NCBI GenBank assembly: GCA_030446525.1
Contig: JAUJNC010000207.1
Span: 1-10,792 of the forward strand
Length of the DNA stretch: 10,792 nt
Direction: 5' to 3'
Origin: Armatimonadaceae bacterium
GTDB lineage: Bacteria; Armatimonadota; Armatimonadia; Armatimonadales; Armatimonadaceae
Shown: positions 1 through 10,792 of the stretch, piece by piece
Layout of the letters: each line of letters starts with the position of its first letter
Numbering within the stretch: position 1 is the stretch's first letter
The notes under the pieces: model-generated
The model's input: only the letters and a program-made list of their open reading frames with translations
What the model was told of the DNA's origin: nothing
The model's database searches: none
Position numbers and translations under genes: made by a program

Positions 1-1283
1 CCTGCCGCCGGAGATGTGCGCCCTGGCGGAGGAAACCCTGCGGCGCATCTTTGCGACGGGACAGATGCACCCGCTCCATTTCTACCTTCCTTCCCCCACG
101 GGCACGCGGTATTTCGACGCCAGCGGCGTTCCTGGAGTTTGCGCCGGATGGCTCGGTCGAATGGGTGATGACCGTAAGCCGCGACGTGACGGAGCGCGTG
201 CGTGCCGAAGAGATGGTGTGGGCGCGTGCGCGTCAGCAGGGCGCGGTCGCTGAACTGGGCGTGTATGCCCTCTCCGGCGTTGACCCTGATGGCGCTAATG
301 AAGGAGGGCCACCCGCCCGTGGCCGAGACCCTTGCGGTGGAGTTGTGCAAAGTGCTCCAGTTGCTGCCCGATGGCAAGGGAATGCTTCTGGTTGCCGGTG
401 TGGGCTGGAAGGAGGGACTGGTCGGCCACGGCAGGTCGCCAGCACTGGGCTGGACTCGCAGGCAGGCTACGCCTTGCTTTCCAACGAGCCGGTCATCGTG
501 GAAGATCTGCGCACGGAGACGCGCTTTCCGGGCCGCTGCTGCTTCGCGAGCACGGGGTCGTCAGCGGCATCAGTTGCATCATCCACGGGCACGGGGGCAA
601 CCTCTATGGCGGTGCTGGGCGCGCACACAAGGACGCGGCGCAGATTCACCCGCGACGACGCCGCCTTTCTCCAGGGGGTAGCCAACGTACTCGCGACCGC
701 GATAGAGCGCAAGCGGAGCGACGAGGAGAAGGCAGAACTGCTGCGCCGGGTGGCGGAGGCCGCGACAGCAGCAGCGCACGTTCCTTGCGCGATGTTCTTA
801 GCTCGGTTACCGAGGGGCAAACTGCGCCTGTGCGACAACGCAGCCGACCTGCCGCCGCGTTTGGCGCGCGTGGGAGAGCCGATAGAACTGAGCGCCGAGG
901 CGCTGCGGGCGCTGCGCCAGCGGACGCTGGAGGCGGCGCGAGAGCAGGGCTTCGACAAGGATCGAGGGCACGACCTTGACCGCAGTCGGGGAGGCGAGCA
1001 TGAACGCGATTCGCCACGCCGGTGGCGGGACGGCGTGGGTAGGGCAGTTCCTTCGGGCACGGGTGCAGGTCTGGATCGAAGACAAGGGCAACGGTATCTG
1101 ATGGAGCGTCTTCCTGCAGGCCACGCTGGAGCGTGGCTTCTCGTCGGCAGGAACGCCAGCATGGTTTTTTCTTATTCTCGCCTCTGCGGACGCAGGCTGT
1201 ACCACTCACCGGGCCTTCCCACCACGGTGGTGATCGAGCAGGAGCGCGCTGCCCCGGAACCCGCTTGCCTCGCGGGGCGGTGA
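1..1283 (+). pseudogene. PAS-GAF-HATPase signalling protein, 3' part, many frameshifts
   Basis: The gene enters from outside the window and is readable only by hopping between all three plus frames. A PAS-domain end is seen at about 77-212 (FYLPSPTGTRYFD, then FAPDGSVEWVM and TVSRDVTERVRAEE). A GAF domain follows at about 270-720 (AETLAVELCKVLQLLPDG, NEPVIVEDLRTETRFPG, DDAAFLQGVANVLATAIERK). A GHKL ATPase domain ends the protein: N-box EASMNAIRHAG at 991-1023, G1-like motif EDKGNGI just before a stop at 1099, then in other frames ATLERGF and TTVVIEQER, ending at 1283. Proteins of this layout sense signals through PAS/GAF and act as histidine kinases or RsbW-like serine kinases/anti-sigma factors. 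No H-box histidine is obvious, so the RsbW-like reading is preferred. About eight frame changes are needed, and residues on both sides stay family-like. It could be a decaying gene or an intact one read badly. The 410-aa open frame at 51-1283 is a mixture and not the true protein. Confidence 0.75.
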
Positions 1284-1313
1284 TGCGGTGCCGGCGCGGT
1301 TCATTTCAGCCGC

Positions 1314-1958
1314 TCACCCTGCGCCGTATTCCTGTATGGCGAAGTCCCCAGCGTCACGGCGTAACTGCGCTGCTCGCCGCAGGCGGCACCGACGACGACT
1401 TCGCAGGCGACGGCGACGCTCAGAAGCACTAGGTTGCGCGCCAGCGGGTAGTCGCACACGTCGTCCCGCGCCGAAGACGGCACGCGGTACGCGTCGTTCC
1501 AGATCACCTCGGCATAGTCGCTCGCCAGGCCGGCGTGCAGGCAGGAGTGCCGGAGGCCGCGCAGGCGTCCTTCACCGCCTGGCGCGCCACGCTGTTGTCG
1601 AAGGTGTCGACGACGAGTCCGCTGCCGGCGAGCAGCTTGGCGGCGTTGGCGGACGCCGTACTTCCTCCGGCTTTGCGGTCACCGCCAGCCCCAGCGCCTG
1701 GTACAGCGTGTTCGCCAATATCTTGGCCTTGAACGCCCCGATGTCCGTTCGGAAATAGGGCTGCGTCGACAGGTTGCGCCCTTCCTCCACCTGATCGCGG
1801 TCGATCACCGTGAGCCGCGCGAACCTCTGGCGCGCCAGGCCTTCGGCCAGGTTCGCCCCCAGCGCGCCCGCGCCGCACATTGTAGACCGCGCCGGCGCAG
1901 CCGCCGCATCACCGCGTCCGTACGGTAGAGCCTGTTCGTGGTAAAGGATGCCGCTCAT
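1314..1958 (-). pseudogene. ThiF/E1-like adenylyltransferase, frameshifted
   Basis: The family is the E1/ThiF/MoeB/HesA Rossmann fold, which adenylates the C-terminus of a ubiquitin-like or sulfur-carrier protein. The glycine-rich nucleotide loop GAGALGANLAEGLARQ is followed by LTVIDRDQVEE, NLSTQPYF and IGAFKAKILANTLYQALG. Shifted frames then give LLAGSGLVVDTFDNSVARQ, YRVPSSARDDVCDYPLA and RNLVLLSVAVACEVVVGA. The VIDRDxVEERNLxxQ pattern is the classic acidic/Arg set contacting ATP. The repaired protein is about 215 aa, short for the family, so it is a minimal E1-like domain; no separate catalytic-cysteine domain is visible. At least three single-base breaks occur, e.g. a missing C near 1555 and a missing G near 1349; repairing the latter gives the ending GDFAIQEYGAG and a stop at 1314. 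The unrepaired frame runs to 1301. The ATG at 1958 overlaps the TGA of the upstream gene, indicating translational coupling. Its substrate is not identifiable here. Confidence 0.8.
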
Positions 1959-2879
1959 CGCCAATCGTCCTCGTAGCGCCGCTCGATCACGCCGACCAGC
2001 GACTGCAGGTCGAAGTCCTGGTCGCGGGTCGCTGAGGCAGATGTCGGTTCGACGACGGTCAGTCGCTCTTGGCGACGGCCGACGCGCTGCTCGCCGTCGC
2101 GCGTCGTCCGACCAGCCAGTACTCGCCCTGGTCGGTGAAGTCGCGCGCTCGCCGCCCCTGGTCCGCAGCGCCGCGCCGCGCCTCGTCCTGCAGTGACCTC
2201 CTGGCGCTGTCGCCGCCTCGTGCCCGGCACCTCCGAGATGTCGTCGCCGCCGGGTCCTCCCGCCACTGGCGCCCGGCCTCGCGCGGCGCGCGCTCCACGA
2301 ACCGTTCGTCCTGCTGCGCCACCAGGTCATAGACGGTCCGCATCTCGGGAGTGATGCCCTTGAAGCGCACCTGATCAGGCGGCGTTACGGTTCCGCAAGG
2401 CGTCGCGCAGGTGTTCGGCCGCGAGCGGGTCGGCCCGCCGGTCCACGTCCTCGAACCACCAGGTCCCGCCGACACAGCGCGCCGTCACCTGCTCGAAGGC
2501 AGCCCTCGACCAGATGCACGGCCAGGGGCCGCGCCGCCTCCCAGCGCTGTCGCATGTCTCCCTCGTTCGCCGGATACGCCAGCCACGTTTGCCCGGCGAG
2601 GAGCGCGCGAAGTCGGACCCGCAGCACCGGGAACAGCCCCAGGTACTCGGCGATGAGCGGCAGGTCCGCCTCCTCGACGACCTGCGCGGTTTTGGTATCC
2701 ACCGACTGGAAGATCCCCCAGCCTTCGAAGTCCGCGGGTCGAGGCGCGAGCGTCTGCACCAGCCCGGCTACCTTCGCCCGCACGGTGCCGCCACGGACGC
2801 AGGGTGCCAAGAACTGCGTCCTTTGAAAGTCCTCCTCCAGCTTCGCCATCTGGTCGAGCAGCTTACGTATATCGGGCAT
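1955..2879 (-). pseudogene. Conserved protein of unknown function next to ThiF, frameshifted
   Basis: I do not recognise a named family. The first ~140 residues read cleanly: a charged helical N-terminus (MPDIRKLLDQMAKLEEDF), then RGGTVRAKVAGLVQTL, GWGIFQSVDTKTAQVVEEA and LPVL-type helices, consistent with a small mixed alpha/beta domain. The frame then shifts and resumes with WWFEDVDRRADPLAAEHL, FKGITPEMRTVYDLVAQQ and FTDQGEYWLVG. It ends with RDQDFDLQSLVGVIERR and a TGA at 1955. Three or more indels fall between about 2100 and 2470. The repaired length is about 308 aa. The stop overlaps the ThiF ATG by ATGA, so the two are co-translated and probably work together. One guess is a substrate or scaffold for the E1-like enzyme, but nothing in the sequence proves that. 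No signal peptide or membrane segment is seen. Confidence 0.65.
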
Positions 2880-2970
2880 GACGGCACCGCCGGTTTCTCG
2901 GAATCAGGCGGGGACGGAAAAACCGCCCGCGTGCAAATGATCCGTCTTGATGCCCGCTTCGCTCAAATCG

Positions 2971-2996
2971 CGGGGCGGGCCTTTTGGCCCGCCCCG
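2971..2996 (-). terminator. Perfect 11-bp hairpin between Ro60-like gene and downstream pair
   Basis: An 11-bp perfect GC-rich stem (CGGGGCGGGCC with GGCCCGCCCCG) encloses a 4-base loop. It lies 22-47 bases after the TAA of the Ro60-like gene. There is no proper U-run after it in the minus direction, so it may act as a partial terminator or an mRNA 3'-end protector. That would lower expression of the two downstream genes rather than stop transcription. Confidence 0.55.
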
Positions 2997-3017
2997 GCAT
3001 TACCGGCCCGTTGTACT

Positions 3018-5035
<2,018 letters not shown>

Positions 5036-5073
5036 CGGTCTCACTTCTTCCTATCACGTCGTTTACGGTCGTC

Positions 5074-5087
5074 CCCGCTGAAACGGG
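5074..5087 (-). other. Small hairpin between Y-RNA candidate and first protein gene
   Basis: A 4-bp stem (CCCG with CGGG) closes a 6-base loop, about 40 bases upstream of the ATG at 5035. It may form the 3' end of the Y-RNA transcript or be a leader structure. It has no U-tract, so a terminator role is doubtful. Confidence 0.3.
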
Positions 5088-5100
5088 ATGCTCCGCAAGT

Positions 5101-5225
5101 CCGAAAAGCTGCTTTACTACTCTGACGCTCTGCCGCTGATTACGGACGCGCGTCCGGCGGGATTCGAACCCGCGACCCTCGGGTTGAACCCAATACCGTT
5201 CCGACCGACAGTAGAGGCAGTTCCT
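5101..5225 (-). ncRNA. Candidate bacterial Y RNA (YrlA-type, tRNA-mimicking)
   Basis: On the minus strand there is a perfect tRNA T-arm at 5173-5157 (stem GCGGG/CCCGC, loop TTCGAAT). It is followed at once by an acceptor-like 3' strand CGGACGC (5156-5150), then its own complement GCGTCCG (5149-5143), then TA and a D-arm-like TCAGCGGCAGAGC (5139-5127). The acceptor stem is thus closed as a hairpin and the order is T-arm, acceptor, D-arm, the reverse of a normal tRNA. YrlA-type Y RNAs are known to have this tRNA-like module, with the Ro60-binding stem in place of the anticodon stem. Candidate outer pairing: CTACT (5214-5210) with AGTAG (5121-5117), and CTGC (5220-5217) with GCAG (5112-5109), continued by GGAA with TTTT across a bulge. 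The D-stem itself is weak. It lies just upstream of a Ro60-like operon on the same strand, where Y RNAs are usually encoded. The exact ends are uncertain. Confidence 0.68.
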
Positions 5226-5254
5226 CCGTATCTCCACGAGCGATCAAACTCGGC

Positions 5255-5271
5255 AGGCGGAGGAACCGCCT
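5255..5271. repeat. Short inverted repeat (6-bp stem, 5-base loop)
   Basis: AGGCGG and CCGCCT flank a 5-base loop in the stretch between the Y-RNA candidate and the IS4-type remnant. No gene is seen in 5226-5300. It could be the end of a transcript or the outer edge of the insertion sequence, but nothing decides between these. Confidence 0.3.
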
Positions 5272-5299
5272 CATGCCTTTCATCCTACGACACGTGCAG

Positions 5300-6620
5300 T
5301 CCGGGGCAAGCTATGTCAGCAACTCTCGCTCGATGCCCTGAAGCCGCGCCACGAGCGGCGGCATTCAGCAGGCACTGCAAGAGACGCACGCACGCGCACC
5401 CGGCGAGAACGTAAACTCAACCTGGAGGTGATCGTCCTTTGGTGGTCGCTTCATGAGCCTGTACGCCAAGGATTCCGTCGGCTCTGTCGCGCAAGCTGTG
5501 CCACAGACTGCGCCTGCTGCAGAGTGACCCGGAGGCACCGCCCCGCGACGGTGCCCTCGTCGGCGCTATCAACTGGGCGTGCGTCCTATGGCAGCCTTGT
5601 CTCACCGTGCTCGCCGGCCCCTTGCCACAGAGCATACTCCCGGCGCGTTCGCCCCGGCTTGCGCCTTGTCGCCCTCGACGGCCAAGAGATCGACGTGCCG
5701 GACGCCTCGAGAACGCTCGCTACTTCGGTAAACGGCGCGGCAAGGGGGGACTCGGCTTGGCCCAAGGCGCGCCTGCTCTATCTGGGCGAATGCGGGACTC
5801 ATGCCATCTTTGATGCGGGCTTGTGGCCCTGCACGATGACGAGAAGGCAGTCTTGGCGCCTGTTGCGCTCGGTCAAAGACGGAATGCTGCTGTCTTCGAC
5901 CGCGGCCTGTGGAGCCGGAGCGTGTCAAAGCCGTGCGGCAGCGCAATGCCCATGTGCTGTGCGGCACCCGCCCCCTGTCCAGCCGGGGCGCAGCGCCGGC
6001 CAAGATGGCTCTTGGCTGGTCTGGATCGGCAGCAGCAGGGCGGCGGCAGGAAGCACGTCGCAGGACTCGGAAGCGCCTGCTGAGCGCCAGTCCAATACAC
6101 GATCTGTAGCCGAATCTGCCGGGCCATGGGCAACGGTACCAGGCTCATCACCACGCTGGACCCCGATCGTTGCCAGCGCGAGTTGGCATTGCCTGTCACG
6201 AGCGCTGGGAGATCGAGATCACCCTCGACGAAGATCAGGGTGCATCAGCACTTTCGCAGCAGCCCATCGACAAAAGCAGCCAGGTGATATTGCGGGAACT
6301 CTACGAACTGCTGATCGCCCATTGGGCCGTTCGGTTTCGTGCATCAGGCCGCCATCAAAGCGGATCTGGACCCGGAGCAGCGCTCCTTCCGCACGCTCCG
6401 GGTGATCGGCGAAGGCGGTCGGGACTTTCGAACGGCAGCGCGGAGATGATGCCGCTTGTGCCCGCATGCTGGAGGATCGCGTCGCGTCCTTTGCCTGCGC
6501 GTCATTAACACTGCAATGCGGGTGGTGAAACGAAAGATGAACGCTTTGACCTGAAGCGTCAGAACACGCCCATCCCACCCCGCAAACTGTTGGGAGAGCT
6601 ACTGGTCCCCTTGTTGAATG
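5300..6620 (+). pseudogene. IS4-family transposase remnant, frameshifted
   Basis: A DDE transposase of the IS4 family is readable across several plus frames. The N-terminal part around 5390-5440 reads RRERKLNLEVIVLW. Then come LRLVALDGQEIDVPDAS (about 5660-5710, first catalytic Asp region), DSAWPKARLLYLGECGTHA and IFDAGLWPC, and the second Asp region in AVFDRGLW (about 5890). The C-terminal signature CHERWEIEITLDE (about 6194-6232) matches the IS4 Y-(2)-R-(3)-E-(6)-K motif with Tyr replaced by Cys, and with the expected Lys position read as Arg after correcting one base. SSQVILRELYELLIAHWAV and KRKMN-like text close the gene. Coordinates are approximate because neither a start nor terminal inverted repeats could be found. 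Numerous indels make it inactive as written. Confidence 0.7.
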
Positions 6621-6825
6621 GTATTGTTGTTAGGGGCTCTTCAGCTCGACTTTGTCCTTTTCAACAGCTGGACAGCAGTGTCAAGGAGTGAGAGTGGCCT
6701 TTAGCCGGACTTTCGATGTCCGGGATCACCCAATATCGAAGTCCCCCGTGGGCGCACGGCCAATCGGAGCCGTTGCGGGTAAATGGATGAAGTCGAGCTT
6801 GGGTGCGTTGTTCGATGATAGTGGT
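6621..6825. other. No gene seen; edge region between IS4-type and IS1-type remnants
   Basis: Short open frames here resemble nothing I recognise. The stretch probably holds the end of the IS4-type element and the left end and promoter region of the IS1-type element, but I could not identify terminal repeats for either. Confidence 0.35.
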
Positions 6826-7316
6826 ATGGTCACTACTCCTGCCCTGCGGTAACCGCAAAATCATCGTAAGTTCGCGCCAACCGCTCCGGCACCGCGCGCT
6901 GCTGCTGTCCACGGCTGCGGCAAGGCCTACACTCGATCCCGAGCGCTTTCCACCAGAAGAGCAACGGGTCTGCTGGGCGCTGCAGGAGCGCGCTTCTCAG
7001 CGCGCAACATCGCCGTACCCTGAAGCTCAGGCGCCAGAGCATCCAGGCGCTGCGCAAAAATGCTGCCCGCATAAGCTCAAGTCCCGGCAACACGGCATCA
7101 CGACCGTGCCCGCGCCCGAGGGCGACGCAGTCGAGATCGATGAACTCTGTCCGGGTCTCGCCGAGGTCTGTGGCTCTGGACTGCCGTGTCTCGCCTGGTG
7201 CGACGAGTGGTCGGGTTCGTGATCGGCGACCACACCGATCCCATGCTCGTCCTGGTCTGGTCGGATGTACCCCGGACTATGGTGACCCCGTTTGTCCAGG
7301 CGTGGCGGCTTGTTTA
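6826..7316 (+). pseudogene. IS1-family transposase, 5' fragment, frameshifted
   Basis: The likely ATG at 6826 starts MVTTPA, followed after an indel by CGNRKIIVSSRQP, the remains of the InsA-like zinc-binding and helix-turn-helix part. The frame continues FPPEEQR, QERASQRA, and in another frame LKLRRQSIQALRK. The catalytic part appears as EGDAVEIDEL (first Asp region, about 7120-7147), then WLWTAVSRLVRRVVGFVIGD, typical of IS1 transposases. The reading ends with VTPFVQAWRLV and a TAA that falls inside the left inverted repeat of the neighbouring IS3 element. The usual second half, with the TN(H/T)-E-FN region, is missing, so the gene was truncated, most simply by IS3 insertion. The missing half was not found beyond 8483. 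Confidence 0.65.
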
Positions 7317-7333
7317 AGATAGAACCCTGTGTC
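7314..7333 (+). repeat. IS3 left terminal inverted repeat
   Basis: TTAAGATAGA then ACC then CTGTGTC. It pairs with the repeat at 8459-8479 with one gap. The stop codon of the truncated IS1-type frame lies across its outer edge. Confidence 0.7.
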
Positions 7334-7339
7334 CGATTT

Positions 7340-8130
7340 AGCGGTTTCAATTTCCCGTGATGAATCGCCGCAGGCATCTGGTGACAGCGATTGATGCGCT
7401 CGCTCCCAGTTATAACTGAAGGTACGCGCCAGACTCATGATGCCCAACGCCACCGTCGCGTACTCCTTCAAGTACACCTCCTGTGCCAGCGCTGCGCCGC
7501 AGACGCTCCACGAAATGTTGTCCAGAGCCCGGCCGCGCCGCCCATCCGCCTGATCCTGATCGCTCCCGGCAACCGCCCGTAAAGGCCGAACTCGTGAACT
7601 GCGCCCCCTGATCCGTGTTGGGGCACTCAGGACGCCCTGACCAAGTGCCTTCTCCAGAGCCACGACGAGCAGAAACTCCCCATCGGCGTGGTCGAGACAT
7701 CATGCAGTACAAAGCGGCTGCCGCAGTCCTCCACCGCCACCAAATGCGAAGGCCCTGAGGCATCGGGAAGGTGATGTCTGTACTCCAGACCTGGTTCGCC
7801 GCTCTGTCTTCACGCCCCACCCCAGCAGATGCAGATACACCTTGCTGTAGCCCCGGTGCGGCAACGCTCGTCTTCCTCTTGGGCAAGATCGCCGCCAGCC
7901 CCATCACCTGCATCGGCCAGGCTACGCGCTGCTTGTTGACCACGCGGCCTGCTCCCGCAACCGCACGCCGTGCGCCGTGCCCCATAGAGCAACGTTCTTG
8001 TGTACTGCGCGTCGATGGCCGCATCAGCCACGGGTCCTCTTGCCGCTCGCCCAGGTGCCGGTAGTAGCGGCCGGAGCATGAAGTCCCGGGGCGCGTTGGC
8101 GCACCAGCTCGGCTGCGGGTGTTTGGGCTC
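7340..8130 (-). pseudogene. IS3 OrfB transposase (rve-type DDE domain), frameshifted
   Basis: Catalytic-domain pieces are clear although spread over three frames. They run IEPKHPQ (N-terminus), DAQYTRTLLYGARR, VNKQRVAWPMQVMGLAAIL and PKRKTSVAAPG; NQVWSTDITF holds the first catalytic Asp, NTDQGAQFTS the second Asp, and FVERL the catalytic Glu, followed by EVYLKEYATVALGIM and YNWERAHQSL. In intact IS3 elements OrfB is made as an OrfAB fusion by programmed -1 frameshifting. Here there are at least five extra frame changes, so no working fusion is expected. Ends are approximate. Confidence 0.75.
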
Positions 8131-8144
8131 GATCGGGTGCCGCT

Positions 8145-8432
8145 TTAGACTCGGCCGAGTTGGCCCAGACTTTTTTTGAGCCAGTCGAGTTCCACCTGCA
8201 TTGCCCGATCGCACAATTTTTGGTCGCTCTTACGGCGCCTCCTGCTCTTTGTCGGCGTTTGTCGCAGAAGACCCGCGACTCGTCGAGGAGTTGCTTCTTC
8301 GAAGCGGTCAGTTGTGTCGGGTGAGAGCACCAGATCGCTGGCGATCTCGTTGACAGTGCGTTGTCCTTTGATGAGTTCCGGGGCGGCTTTAGCCTTGAAC
8401 TGGGCGCTGTATTGTCTGCGCTGTGTCGTCAT
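8145..8432 (-). pseudogene. IS3 OrfA (helix-turn-helix) transposase subunit, degraded
   Basis: A 95-aa open frame starts MTTQRRQYSAQFKAKAA and continues ELIKGQRTVNEIASDL, the helix-turn-helix DNA-binding part of IS3 OrfA. The middle (TTDRFEEATPRRVAGLL) is out of frame relative to the family. Its end returns to SDQKLCDRAMQVELDWLKK, the leucine-zipper-like region. It therefore contains compensating indels and is probably not functional, although no stop interrupts it. It lies just inside the right inverted repeat. Confidence 0.75.
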
Positions 8433-8458
8433 GTTTGCTTCCTTCGTCCTTTCATTGT

Positions 8459-8479
8459 GACACAGGCTCTCTATCTTAA
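8459..8479 (-). repeat. IS3 right terminal inverted repeat
   Basis: Read on the minus strand: TTAAGATAGA, GAGC, CTGTGTC. It sits 27 bases upstream of the OrfA ATG and 30 bases from the first attC-like site. Confidence 0.7.
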
Positions 8480-8508
8480 TTCCTGTCCGAAAACTTCCAG
8501 GGCATTAT

Positions 8509-8622
8509 ACCTAACGCTCCGCTTCGCAACGCCGGGCTCCCCGCAAGGTGTGAACGCGCTTGAGAAGCGTGCAACAGGCGACAGATGGCTGCTCTGGCGT
8601 CCGGTGCAAGCGGTTGTTGGGC
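8509..8622 (-). other. attC-like recombination site 1 (end of cupin cassette)
   Basis: Read on the minus strand the site begins GCCCAAC (8622-8616) and ends GTTAGGT (8515-8509), matching the integron core sites RYYYAAC and GTTRRRY. Inside, CCGCTT near the start pairs with AAGCGG near the end (AAGCGGAGCGTTAGGT), giving the typical imperfect hairpin. At 114 bases it is longer than the other sites here and lacks their shared inner block, so it is a divergent type. It lies 44 bases after the cupin stop, where a cassette's own attC belongs. Confidence 0.65.
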
Positions 8623-8665
8623 CATCGGTCGTGGATGCCCCAGTCACTGCGGTGCCTATTGCTCG

Positions 8666-9102
8666 TCATGCGCTCGGCGGTACCACAATCAGACCGTGAC
8701 GGCGCATAACCTCGGCCACCTGCGCCGGGTCAGGTGGGCCGCCTGCCAGCAGGGCGGCCAGATCGCGGAAGTATGCCGGCCCGATCAGGGCTGGTGAGAG
8801 TACCGACAGCGTGCGCGTGGTCTCTGTTCCGGCGTTGACGAAGTGATGAACGGCCCCGCGGGGAATGAAGCAGTGATCGCCAGGCCGCAGTTCGACGCTC
8901 CTGCCCTCGGCCGTAAAGGTGAGTACGCCCTCCAGACCATAGGCGACTTCATCCACGTGCTCGTGGTAGTGGGGGCAGGGACACGCGCGCCGGCGGGAAC
9001 AAGGAACTCGAACATCGAGAGGCGGACCGCGGTGTCGTCGCTGTCGAGCAGGAAGCGGATCTCGATCTGGCCGATCTGGATGATTTCTTTGGGTGGTGCC
9101 AT
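8666..9102 (-). CDS. Small single-domain cupin protein (one frameshift), cassette gene
   Basis: A protein of about 145 aa in two frames. The start MAPPKEIIQIGQIEIRFLL has a good ribosome site (AAAAGGA) before the ATG at 9102. After a five-C run near 8975 one more C is needed to join HYHEHVDEVAYGLEG, which is cupin motif 1 (HxH-x4-E-x6-G). Motif 2 is intact: GDHCFIPRGAVHHFVN (G-x5-P-x-G-x2-H-x3-N). The two His, Glu and third His are the usual metal ligands of a beta-barrel that binds Mn, Fe, Zn or similar. The C-terminal ~50 residues are helical (AYFRDLAALLAGGPPDPAQ) and resemble those of small cupins of unknown substrate. Specific activity cannot be told; sugar-, auxin- or antibiotic-type substrates are all possible. 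It sits alone between two attC sites and is a typical one-gene cassette. Confidence 0.8.
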
Positions 9103-9143
9103 TGTATTATCCTTTTCCCTATCGAACCCGCTACGGACCAGCC

Positions 9144-9237
9144 ACCCAACGGCCGAACTCAGGGGCGCGAAGCACTTGACCACCGGGCGAAGCAAGTCAC
9201 CGGCAGCTTTCGCGTCCCCTGCAGTGACTCGTTGGGC
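9144..9237 (-). other. attC site 2 (end of toxin-antitoxin cassette)
   Basis: Minus-strand ends are GCCCAAC (9237-9231) and GTTGGGT (9150-9144). The inner arms AGGGGCGCGAAG (9161-9172) and CTTTCGCGTCCCCT (9208-9221) are complementary apart from extra unpaired bases, as expected for the folded single-strand attC used by IntI integrases. It is 94 bases long, lies 27 bases after the DUF5615 stop and 42 bases before the cupin ATG, and is close in sequence to the site at 9943-10035. Confidence 0.85.
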
Positions 9238-9263
9238 CGCACTCCCTTTGGCTGCTACCGTTC

Positions 9264-9617
9264 TTACGTATGTACAATTAACGCCCCTCGGGTCAATTCC
9301 ACCAAGCTACTGGTGGTAAACGCCGTAACGATGGCAGCTATGTTCGGCAGCAGCAAGGCTTCCAGCTCAGCATTACTGATGTTGCCGGTCGAGACGAGCA
9401 ACAGTCTCTCCGGCTCCCCAGTGAGCAGGAACGAGTTGACGAAGTCGGCATCCTTGGTGACCACAACCCGACCTTCGCGCGCGGCCAGGTTCAGGATCTC
9501 GGCGTCCGTGGTGCGGTTCGCCTCGGGCAAATCCAGGGTGTGCACGGCATCATGACCCGCCTCCTGGAGCCGGTACGCTATGCGACGCGGCAGCTGGGCG
9601 TCCACCAGGAACTTCAT
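9264..9617 (-). CDS. DUF5615 PIN-like toxin, cassette gene
   Basis: A complete 117-aa protein, MKFLVDAQLPRRIAYRLQEA at the start, then HDAVHTLDLPEANRTTDAEI, GRVVVTKDADFVNSFLL and RLLLVSTGNISNAELEALL. The acidic residues of FLVDAQLP, TDAEI and TKDADF fit the metal-binding set of PIN-like/Mut7-C-type nucleases grouped as DUF5615. Proteins of this type are partnered with DUF433 proteins as toxin and antitoxin; RNA cleavage is presumed, not shown. The ATG overlaps the antitoxin stop (ATGA, 9617-9614), so translation is coupled and the toxin follows the antitoxin. All key residues appear intact, and no frameshift is present, unlike most genes in the left part of the window. Confidence 0.9.
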   Translation of the reverse strand: MKFLVDAQLPRRIAYRLQEAGHDAVHTLDLPEANRTTDAEILNLAAREGRVVVTKDADFVNSFLLTGEPERLLLVSTGNISNAELEALLLPNIAAIVTAFTTSSLVELTRGALIVHT

Positions 9618-9847
9618 GCGGCAAGAAGATCAAACCGCTTGACCTGAGAGAGCCGGGCGGCAAAAGCCAGCGCGGCCAGAATATCTTCGCGTTCCAGGTC
9701 TTCGTAATCGGTCAGGATCTCCTCACTGCTCATCCCGGCGCTGAGCAGTTCCAGGATCATCTCCACGGGGTAGCGCAACCCGCGGATGGTCGGCTTGCCG
9801 TGACAGATGGCAGGGTCAATGGTGATGCGCTCCGCCAGTTCTCTCAA
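9614..9847 (-). CDS. DUF433 antitoxin, cassette gene
   Basis: The core ERITIDPAICHGKPTIRGLR, then YPVEMILELLSAGMSSEEIL, DYEDLEREDILAALAFAA is the standard DUF433 domain, a winged-helix-like DNA-binding fold acting as VapB-like antitoxin. An in-frame ATG exists at 9877 (MEAKDKEVSGL), but a perfect ribosome site AAGGAGGTGA (9862-9853) lies 5 bases before an in-frame TTG at 9847, close to where family members usually begin, so TTG is chosen: 77 aa, against 87 aa for the ATG. A promoter -10 at 9899-9894 is so close to the ATG that the longer form would have hardly any leader. It is the first gene of its cassette and overlaps the toxin gene by four bases. It likely neutralises the toxin and represses its own promoter. 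Confidence 0.85.
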   Translation of the reverse strand: MRELAERITIDPAICHGKPTIRGLRYPVEMILELLSAGMSSEEILTDYEDLEREDILAALAFAARLSQVKRFDLLAA

Positions 9848-9852
9848 CCCGC

Positions 9853-9862
9853 TCACCTCCTT
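9853..9862 (-). promoter_or_regulatory. Strong ribosome binding site deciding the DUF433 start
   Basis: AAGGAGGTGA, a near-perfect anti-16S match, lies five bases before TTG 9847 and inside the longer possible frame that begins at ATG 9877. It is the main reason to prefer the TTG start. Confidence 0.65.
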
Positions 9863-9893
9863 GTCCTTTGCTTCCATGTGAAGCCCGTGCTTC

Positions 9894-9899
9894 AGTATA
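9894..9899 (-). promoter_or_regulatory. Extended -10 promoter of the toxin-antitoxin cassette
   Basis: On the minus strand TGTTATACT reads as TGn plus TATACT, one mismatch from consensus. No good -35 is present at 17 bases, as is common for extended -10 promoters. It would start transcription near 9887, about 40 bases before the TTG start, inside the cassette. Own promoters are usual for toxin-antitoxin cassettes, which must be expressed wherever they sit in the array. Confidence 0.5.
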
Positions 9900-9942
9900 A
9901 CACAACGCCAATCGCGCGGGCGGGTGTTGGTTGAAGAATGCG

Positions 9943-10035
9943 GCCCAACGGCAAAACTCAGGGGCGCGAAGATGCTGAGTTGGCGCGAAGCAGATAACCG
10001 CCTGCAGTCGCGTCCCCTGCAGTGCTTGGTTGGGC
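9943..10035 (-). other. attC site 3 (end of ankyrin cassette)
   Basis: Minus-strand ends are GCCCAAC (10035-10029) and GTTGGGC (9949-9943). The inner arms AACTCAGGGGCGCGAAG (9955-9971) and CGCGTCCCCTGCAGTG (10009-10024) match those of the site at 9144-9237 almost base for base, while the centre differs. The length is 93 bases. It lies 34 bases after the ankyrin stop. Confidence 0.85.
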
Positions 10036-10069
10036 CGCTCCGGGTTCGGGTTTGTCGGTGAGGTGCTCT

Positions 10070-10657
10070 CTACTCCCTGCCACCCGCTTGCTTGAGCAAG
10101 GGGACAGCGTCGGCGAAGCCCAGACCCTTGGCCCACTTCAGCGCGGTGTTACCCTCGCGGTCCCTGGCGTTCACCCGCGCGCCCGTCTCCAAAAGCAAAC
10201 GTAGCGCCGCGGTGTCCTTGCCTGGTCCTGACACCGCTAACATCAGAGCCGTCTCGGCGCCGGGGCCAAGCGCGTTCGCGTCTGCGCCGCGGGCGAGCAG
10301 CGTCTGTATCATCGCCGCATCTTTCCAGAGTGCTGCCGTCAGCAGAACGGGCCTGTCTTGATGGTATCTGGGCGCGCGTATCTTGTTCCACAGCCGCTCG
10401 AAGCGTTGTCGCAGCGCCGGCGAGCTAGGCGGCTCCAGCCCGGTCCAGAACGGCCCCCACGCCTCCTCGCGCATGTTAGCGTCCGCGCCGCGGTGCAGTG
10501 CGCGCTCGGCAGCGGCAACGTCTCCTGCATGGACGGCTTTGACGAGGGCCGCATTGAGTTGAGCGCGCCGCGCGGCTTGACGACTTGCCAGGGCCAGAAC
10601 AACCACAGCCAAAGCAAGCAGAGATAACACGATGAACCATCTTCGACAGCGAAACAT
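10070..10657 (-). CDS. Membrane-anchored ankyrin-repeat protein, cassette gene
   Basis: A complete 195-aa protein. The start MFRCRRWFIVLSLLALAVVV has basic residues followed by a hydrophobic segment (about residues 8-24), an uncleaved signal anchor or signal peptide placing the rest outside the cytoplasm. Ankyrin repeats follow: NAALVKAVHAGDVAAAERAL with RGADAN (about 34-62), LLTAALWKDAAMIQTLLARG with ADANAL (about 104-129), ETALMLAVSGPGKDTAALRL with GARVNARD (about 135-165), and NTALKWAKGLGFADAVPLL (about 169-188). A longer, less regular linker of about 40 residues (EEAWGPFWTGLEPPSSPALR) separates repeats one and two. Ankyrin repeats bind proteins; the partner is unknown. A ribosome site (AGGAAGAG) lies just upstream of the ATG. 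The single gene lies between two attC sites. Confidence 0.88.
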   Translation of the reverse strand: MFRCRRWFIVLSLLALAVVVLALASRQAARRAQLNAALVKAVHAGDVAAAERALHRGADANMREEAWGPFWTGLEPPSSPALRQRFERLWNKIRAPRYHQDRPVLLTAALWKDAAMIQTLLARGADANALGPGAETALMLAVSGPGKDTAALRLLLETGARVNARDREGNTALKWAKGLGFADAVPLLKQAGGRE

Positions 10658-10683
10658 GGATGCTCTTCCTCATTTCAGCTCAC

Positions 10684-10721
10684 TGTCACGAGGGCCTGAA
10701 GCCGACCAGCCCTTCGTGACA
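10684..10721. repeat. Inverted repeat in the leader of the ankyrin cassette
   Basis: TGTCACGAGGG (10684-10694) and CCCTTCGTGACA (10710-10721) are complementary over 11 bases with one extra T; the loop is 15 bases. It lies between the attC site at 10728 and the ribosome site of the ankyrin gene. It might be an operator or an mRNA hairpin controlling translation; no U-run follows, so a terminator is unlikely. Confidence 0.55.
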
Positions 10722-10727
10722 AGCGCG

Positions 10728-10792
10728 GTCCAACGGTCCGAACTCACGGGCGCGAAGAAGATGGGCTGTAGCGGGCCCTTGCTCCCCTCGCC
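10728..10792 (-). other. attC site 4, cut by the window end
   Basis: The minus-strand end GTTGGAC (10734-10728) matches GTTRRRY, and AACTCACGGGCGCGAAG (10741-10757) matches the inner arm of the two complete sites with one mismatch. The other half lies outside the window. It shows that at least one more cassette, or the attI end, lies beyond. Confidence 0.75.

Follow-up and report, generated by a model that had tools for sequence, protein, structure and literature searches.

A putative Y-RNA-type tRNA mimic of a divergent Ro60 operon in an Armatimonadaceae bacterium and arrays of related units in cyanobacteria

The contig JAUJNC010000207.1 of an Armatimonadaceae bacterium (assembly GCA_030446525.1, positions 1 to 10,792; this whole stretch of 10,792 nucleotides is called the window) carries on its minus strand, upstream of a Ro60-like gene, an element in which a T-arm, a closed acceptor hairpin and a D-arm-like stretch follow one another, and the question arises of what this tRNA-like RNA is and why it stands there. 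Of bacterial Y RNAs, one or two tRNA-like species are known in a given genome, and their purpose is unclear. A sequence-only reading of the window had proposed a Y RNA of this kind together with Ro60, and its two signals, RNA shape and neighbouring gene, both held. In the explanation that we prefer, and to which we give an even chance, the element is a Y-RNA-type tRNA mimic of a divergent Ro60 operon, and the arrays found in its relatives are decoy modules on a common Y stem, held by the protein. The window copy has the following parts:

5157..5173, minus strand: T-arm, 5/5 pairs, TTCGAAT loop, GCGGGTTCGAATCCCGC (sequence; match to R1, a covariance model built from relatives only)
5143..5156, minus strand: closed acceptor hairpin in which a loop links the 3' and 5' acceptor strands, CGGACGCGCGTCCG (sequence; R1 match)
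5127..5140, minus strand: D-arm-like stretch, stem partly paired (sequence; R1 alignment)
5179..5193, minus strand: anticodon-arm-like hairpin UUGGG-UUCAA-CCCGA, 5-nucleotide loop, before the T-arm (by eye)
5090..5112, minus strand: 3' arm of the Y stem, GCAGCTTTTCGGACTTGCGGAGC, after the D-arm (resembles the conserved 3' box of the family)

The claimed order of T-arm, acceptor, complement and D-arm is indeed present on the minus strand, but the acceptor is a self-complementary 14-mer, which by eye can fold into 5 bp with a 4-nucleotide loop (the homologous closed hairpins of relatives have 7 bp), and the D-stem is only partly paired (about 2/4 positions, by eye). R1, whose calibration and E-values are rough, matched the core with 21.8 bits (E 7e-5), the next best place reaching 8.2 bits. 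The Rfam model of YrlA ranks the site, yet the score (21.8 bits on 5205-5097, E 0.73) is far under the cut-off of 69, and the relatives' units scanned reached 29.6-32.3 bits against the same cut-off. The 3' arm had a matrix score of 8.2 (shuffled-window maxima: median 2.7, 9.2 at 95%), and several relatives have an anticodon-type hairpin at the position matching 5179..5193. What the window copy shows is a tRNA-like core and a 3' arm only. ARAGORN recovered no tRNA anywhere in the window, in agreement with the earlier statement that a normal tRNA body is absent, and an ordinary tRNA at the site was rejected on this blank result, recovery after base correction not having been tried. Rfam families other than YrlA were also rejected, since a fragment of the tmRNA T-arm and three weak, chance-like families stayed under their cut-offs. 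A 15-bp inverted repeat upstream of the RNA (5214-5228 / 5258-5272) may form a hairpin of its own or represent a small repeat.

Relatives were taken as the best 80 of 252 loci from a scan of genome contigs; 77 of the 80 titles are cyanobacterial. The order of T-arm, closed acceptor and D-arm recurs in them, on the same strand and upstream of the Ro60-like gene, and in many the region upstream of the gene holds tRNA-like modules framed by a common Y stem (5' arm CGCGCCCTAAC..GAAGCTTACAYAC, 3' arm AGCTTT..AACTTGYGCG). A weight-matrix scan found 326 units upstream of the gene in 77/80 loci, with a median of 4 per locus (range 1-10). The controls gave 1 unit per 459 kb in the gene plus downstream sequence and 0 per 801 kb on the minus strand, the latter being the cleaner control since the box matrix was trained on forward-strand pattern units of the same loci. 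In the three loci with no unit, 324, 42 and 1830 bases were available upstream. A scan of the 80 loci for T-arm plus closed hairpin had 0 matches on the minus strand and, on the plus strand, a few chance or tandem-tRNA places (e.g. L063:1854, L041:295). ARAGORN placed 117 of its 194 tRNA calls in the relatives' loci inside units and, therefore, annotation may record some units as tRNA genes. In a phylum sample around the Armatimonadetes record L001, the protein was present in 6/201 genomes; the flanks of L100, L101 and L102 hold 3, 2 and 3 matrix units, and none was found by the matrix in L099 (324 bases upstream) or in L103-L106 (two genomes, more distant proteins). Another contig of the L001 genome has a further short unit after ThiF (R1 and by eye); partial R1 matches (58-113), probably tandem ordinary tRNAs, were left uncounted.

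Several features of single units were observed besides. Units or box matches also lie away from the Ro60-like gene, on contigs C14, C23 and C30 of genome G271 and at L094 (G010 C1:4302048-4302189), and one of these lies within a G010 tRNA array. The 5' arm UUACAUAC/UUACACAC often holds UACAU, the cleavage motif of some MazF enzymes according to a table in PMC5408214, which may be coincidence. Mimic T-loops are broken by short repeat-like stretches of the type GGTACCCTNCGGGAA at L010:418-557, L065:4139-4287, L072:4482-4630 and L080:3358-3509. Leader units of 140 nucleotides with the insert GGAGGGATACGCTGCAAGCCTGAGACCGATAGCAGGC occur at L035:4800-4940 and L041:4798-4937; Rfam had no useful match for the L041 unit.

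By script, the units were sorted into 82 permuted tRNA, 75 normal-order tRNA, 29 23S-type, 68 minimal and 72 other units, some of them wrongly (the 'perm' rows L007:3183 and L014:2161, for example, are of normal order). The 72 others are, by eye, largely tRNA mimics missing one rule, and at many loci a minimal unit lies within the leader of the Ro60-like gene. Permuted units have a closed acceptor and carry the Y stem between D-arm and anticodon arm or, in a few and by eye, in the D-loop; in normal-order units the Y stem prolongs the acceptor stem. Non-redundant units were aligned (33/54 permuted, with L044 trimmed, 37/42 normal order, 17/18 23S type), rows that were over-long, short, class II/Leu-like, D-loop-broken or misassigned being dropped. 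Scored against consensus structures derived from the same alignments, 96.8% of cells were paired in the permuted alignment (covariation 0.460 vs 0.218 shuffled, double changes in 20/32 pairs), 96.9% in the normal-order alignment (0.482 vs 0.237, 19/30) and 95.1% in the 23S-type alignment (0.367 vs 0.214, 21/49), in which the count of further pair types was no higher than in shuffles. The basal Y stem, of which the window has the 3' arm only, shows paired 5' and 3' ends with covariation in permuted and normal-order units. The comparison with relatives bore out a conserved fold, which keeps its strand and its place before the Ro60-like gene and shows strong covariation.

Which tRNAs are copied was read from 102 parsed normal-order units. 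Their most variable loop positions are those of the anticodon (entropy 1.85, 1.67 and 1.48 bits), position 33 is near-fixed (0.38; T in 96/102), and 28 anticodons were found. Units of L028 are nearest to host tRNAs of Leu, Arg, Asp, Lys and Met type and those of L014 to Asn, Glu and Leu type, as compared with incomplete host sets of 48 and 46 tRNAs, respectively.

Among the first-set units, 21/253 matched E. coli 23S rRNA at 1909-1941 (BLAST, E 2e-7 to 2e-3), the match beginning 43-46 bases into the extracted unit; two other units match a D-arm-like 23S site near 1074-1136, and shuffled units had no 23S match. In the consensus structure the helix 69 3'-strand segment pairs with the unit end in 89% of cells. 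These modules apparently are a permuted piece resembling 23S rRNA around helices 69-71, and in our reading of the sequences they would be a circular permutation in which the helix 69 loop was opened and the Y stem put there. Rfam returned nothing useful for one 23S-type unit (L076); the case for 23S is therefore built on the BLAST matches, their position and the pairing.

The gene named as Ro60-like in the sequence-only reading was confirmed as such on the same strand downstream, since a homolog has the Ro60 fold. The window protein has homologs up to 79% identical, and the fold of homolog P0001 matches Ro60 at 14-16% identity; helical repeats and VWA span the whole length, as in Ro60, and DxSxS is kept in the alignment. 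Pfam scans of the Ro60-like proteins returned VWA (over the cut-off only in P0099) and weak chance families. Judged by the predicted fold, these proteins are a Ro60-fold lineage missed by Pfam. Across 292 cyanobacterial genomes the protein was present in 18, the 5' box pattern in 17 and a reversed control pattern in 3; protein and pattern occurred together in 15 (Fisher p 2e-20).

In 31/77 loci a TTGAC box is followed, with a spacing of 17-18 bases, by tandem TGTAGTA boxes (32 times). The heptamer was taken from PMC10272220, the tandem spacing from the scanned loci themselves. This strict pattern always stands before the first unit and was found neither in the gene-plus-downstream sequence nor on the minus strand. 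According to PMC10272220, TrcR represses the Anabaena trn tRNA operon via TGTAGTAT over the -10 box, and antibiotics that target translation relieve this repression. The promoter of the arrays would thus often be a stress-type promoter with a candidate TrcR site (31 loci).

The window genes around the RNA are:

3018..4447, minus strand: Ro60-like protein, helical repeat region and VWA domain, one frameshift near 3755 (open reading frames, homologs, fold match, tblastn)
4480..4650, minus strand: frameshifted gene remnant between the RNA and the Ro60-like gene; its homolog in L001 is the end of the gene that precedes the Ro60-like gene there (64% over 70 amino acids)
1976..2879, minus strand: operon gene b, conserved, no Pfam match, several frameshifts (homology; 53% over 122 amino acids to relatives' gene b)
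1349..1960, minus strand: ThiF/E1-like protein, frameshifted (Pfam, homology; 55% over 101 amino acids to relatives' ThiF)

As in the window, the Ro60-like gene is followed on the same strand by gene b in 39/80 loci and by ThiF in 36/80; the predicted structure of gene b was of low confidence (predicted local distance difference test score 55) and was not used. Nearby gene clusters, of which one member each was scanned, encode a 265-amino-acid protein of no assigned function (41 loci), a ribosomal L7/L12-like protein (28 loci; the scanned member has both Pfam domains), a protein starting MSDRPSTYQ (25 loci) and a Tpt1/KptA-like RNA 2'-phosphotransferase (8 loci, e.g. L021:10047-10622), the last hinting at RNA repair. 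The rtcBA genes were not among the clusters common to at least 8 loci, no targeted search for them having been made. The L7/L12-like gene lies upstream of the Ro60-like gene near Y units, e.g. at L007:3355-3744. Genes for tRNAs outside units are present in 13/80 loci; three of these hold 20-23, and arrays of this size, made of ordinary tRNA genes, stand upstream of the Ro60-like gene at L017:42-2639, L035 and L041. A known defence system was rejected: in a scan of nine proteins with defence-system models only the ThiF protein resembled a model (E1-E2). A viral origin was rejected as the viral_contigs search yielded no relative. Elsewhere in the window were found a DUF433 and DUF5615 (PIN-like) gene pair resembling a toxin-antitoxin system (9264-9877, minus strand) and a fragment with the transposase helix-turn-helix HTH_Tnp_1, just under the Pfam cut-off (8145-8432, minus strand). 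At L042:6268-9949 (minus strand) a CRISPR repeat array lies about 1.3 kb downstream of the Ro60-like gene.

A second case was found beside ordinary TROVE genes, which are present in 31/292 cyanobacterial genomes. Of 24 TROVE-adjacent loci, 17 carry 39 tRNA-like genes with insertions of 28-65 bases, and GGTTATCG is present in 32 of the 39; 60 host-tRNA loci gave 8 insertion calls, none with GGTTATCG, and no call in the 80 array loci had it. Inspected by eye, the insert seems to be a closed hairpin of Y type, CCTTGCCTG..GGCCGACGA..GAGGGTTATCG, which separates D-arm and anticodon arm and would be the topological counterpart of the permuted units. The tRNA-like genes are of normal order, and several end in CCA (L197:2503-3016, L209, L213, L216, L219, L220, L222, L223). 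In 2/4 genomes tested, including Nostoc carneum, a separate TROVE gene is present besides the Ro60-like one.

How could such arrays work? The Ro60-like protein would bind the Y stem, and the modules, presumably not chargeable, would serve as baits on display and catch proteins that act on tRNA or the 23S A-site region. The most likely targets would be damaging enzymes (anticodon or 23S nucleases) met in translational stress, so that the array may provide decoys in addition to the supply and repair of tRNA; through the minimal unit in the leader of its gene, the Ro60-like protein probably restrains its own synthesis. A competing account, which we rate as possible and which stays close behind the decoys, makes the modules tethers that bring the cell's own RNA enzymes (PNPase, TruB, Dus, other tRNA/23S modifiers) to the Ro60-like ring for processing of misfolded or damaged tRNA and rRNA. 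The modules keep T-loop and D-arm, and the 23S piece comes from a region that we take to be heavily modified. The behaviour of YrlA/Rsr is a direct precedent (PMC7790460), but 28 anticodons and several permutation types would be needless for one enzyme. Decoys are preferred because the anticodon is highly variable, because tRNA arrays and Tpt1 lie near the operon in some loci and because nucleases are known to target tRNA anticodon loops and 23S helix 70 (PMC5408214); moreover, Hughes et al. suggested YrlA as a competitive inhibitor of an anticodon nuclease (PMC7790460). Tentatively, the decoy reading may be extended to a stress-induced library, in which one Ro60-like protein holds exchangeable modules that copy many tRNA identities and 23S helices 69-71, with anticodon loops swapped in evolution to follow ribonucleases of rivals, phages or toxin-antitoxin systems.

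It is improbable that the units serve a long operon mRNA as signals for processing or attenuation, a tRNA-like punctuation with no independent RNA life. The counted units do stand before the gene on its coding strand, behind a single promoter in 31 loci and with a minimal unit in the gene leader at many, but closed acceptors and the 23S piece should not be substrates of RNase P/Z, and units also occur off the operon, on several G271 contigs and in the tRNA array of G010. An origin from decayed tRNA genes, or from mobile repeats that derive from tRNA and collect at a permissive site, would fit the variable unit number (1-10) and the T-loops with repeat-like insertions; this origin is very improbable, as compensatory changes in all three alignments and the tight co-occurrence with the protein disfavour it. 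For the window alone, there is not far short of an even chance that the copy is only a relic of an array, dead or mis-sequenced: its 5' box is missing and the neighbouring genes are frameshifted, but T-arm, closed hairpin and 3' arm seem intact.

Several results weigh against mimics held as decoys on a Y stem or are caveats to the assignment as Y RNA and Ro60. In the window, the box-matrix scan recognised no 5' Y box of the family, and the folding that the sequence-only reading had suggested as a check failed to set the copy apart: the energy is ordinary (z -1.71 for 5097-5205, 0.02 for 5085-5240) and the T-arm is missing from the minimum free energy structure. Neither the window protein nor those of relatives matched Pfam TROVE. 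L054 has no unit despite 1.8 kb upstream, three genomes have the protein without the pattern (two with a partial protein, one also with a stop) and two the pattern without the protein. Anticodons for stop codons, which have no obvious natural tRNA target, occur in 24/102 units, and in the subset of 44 whose D-stem is GCC, variability is higher at positions 32 and 38 than at 35 and 36. The end of 23S-type units resembles the helix 69 5' strand (23S 1885-1915) at or above the 99th percentile of the null in 15/29 and has its best 23S-wide match there in only 9/29; in place of the UUCCU of 23S these modules mostly have UUCGA or UUCGG, and so do not preserve the MazF-mt6 site itself. Tandem boxes taken without the -35 rule (at most 1 mismatch) occur 46 times upstream vs 20 times in gene-plus-downstream sequence and 4 times on the minus strand.

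Among known systems, YrlA (Rfam RF02553) with Rsr, of Salmonella and others, is alike in T-arm, closed acceptor hairpin and D-arm, in the adjacent Ro60 gene and, as far as the relatives show it, in the basal stem. Here, however, arrays comprise as many as 10 units, anticodon arms are present in many of these, permutation points differ, 23S-like modules occur, and scores of window and relatives are below the Rfam cut-off. The proteins share the full-length fold of Ro60/Rsr (TROVE PF05731) but differ by their 14-16% identity and the lack of a TROVE match. Circularly permuted tRNA genes of algae and archaea, which encode the 3' half before the 5' half and yield working tRNAs, have a like order; the units described here differ in the loop that closes their acceptor and in their Y stem. 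The Anabaena trn array under TrcR, as described in PMC10272220, shares with 31/77 loci the pattern of TGTAGTA boxes over the promoter -10 and a putative link to translational stress, but consists of ordinary tRNAs, whereas tRNA/23S mimics on Y stems and tandem boxes are found here. A literature search over titles and abstract openings found no Y RNA arrays in cyanobacteria and no 23S-mimicking Y RNAs; a prior description in Chen 2014, Wang 2018 or Sim and Wolin 2018 is possible.

A conserved array of isoacceptor-diverse tRNA mimics with a 23S-like module could reveal the purpose of Y RNA mimicry and could open it to tests in culturable cyanobacteria that carry the array, such as Nostoc carneum NIES-2107, Calothrix parasitica NIES-267 and Fischerella thermalis PCC 7521. 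If the library of decoys is real, a ring protein with a set of modules would be a general defence by RNA mimicry.
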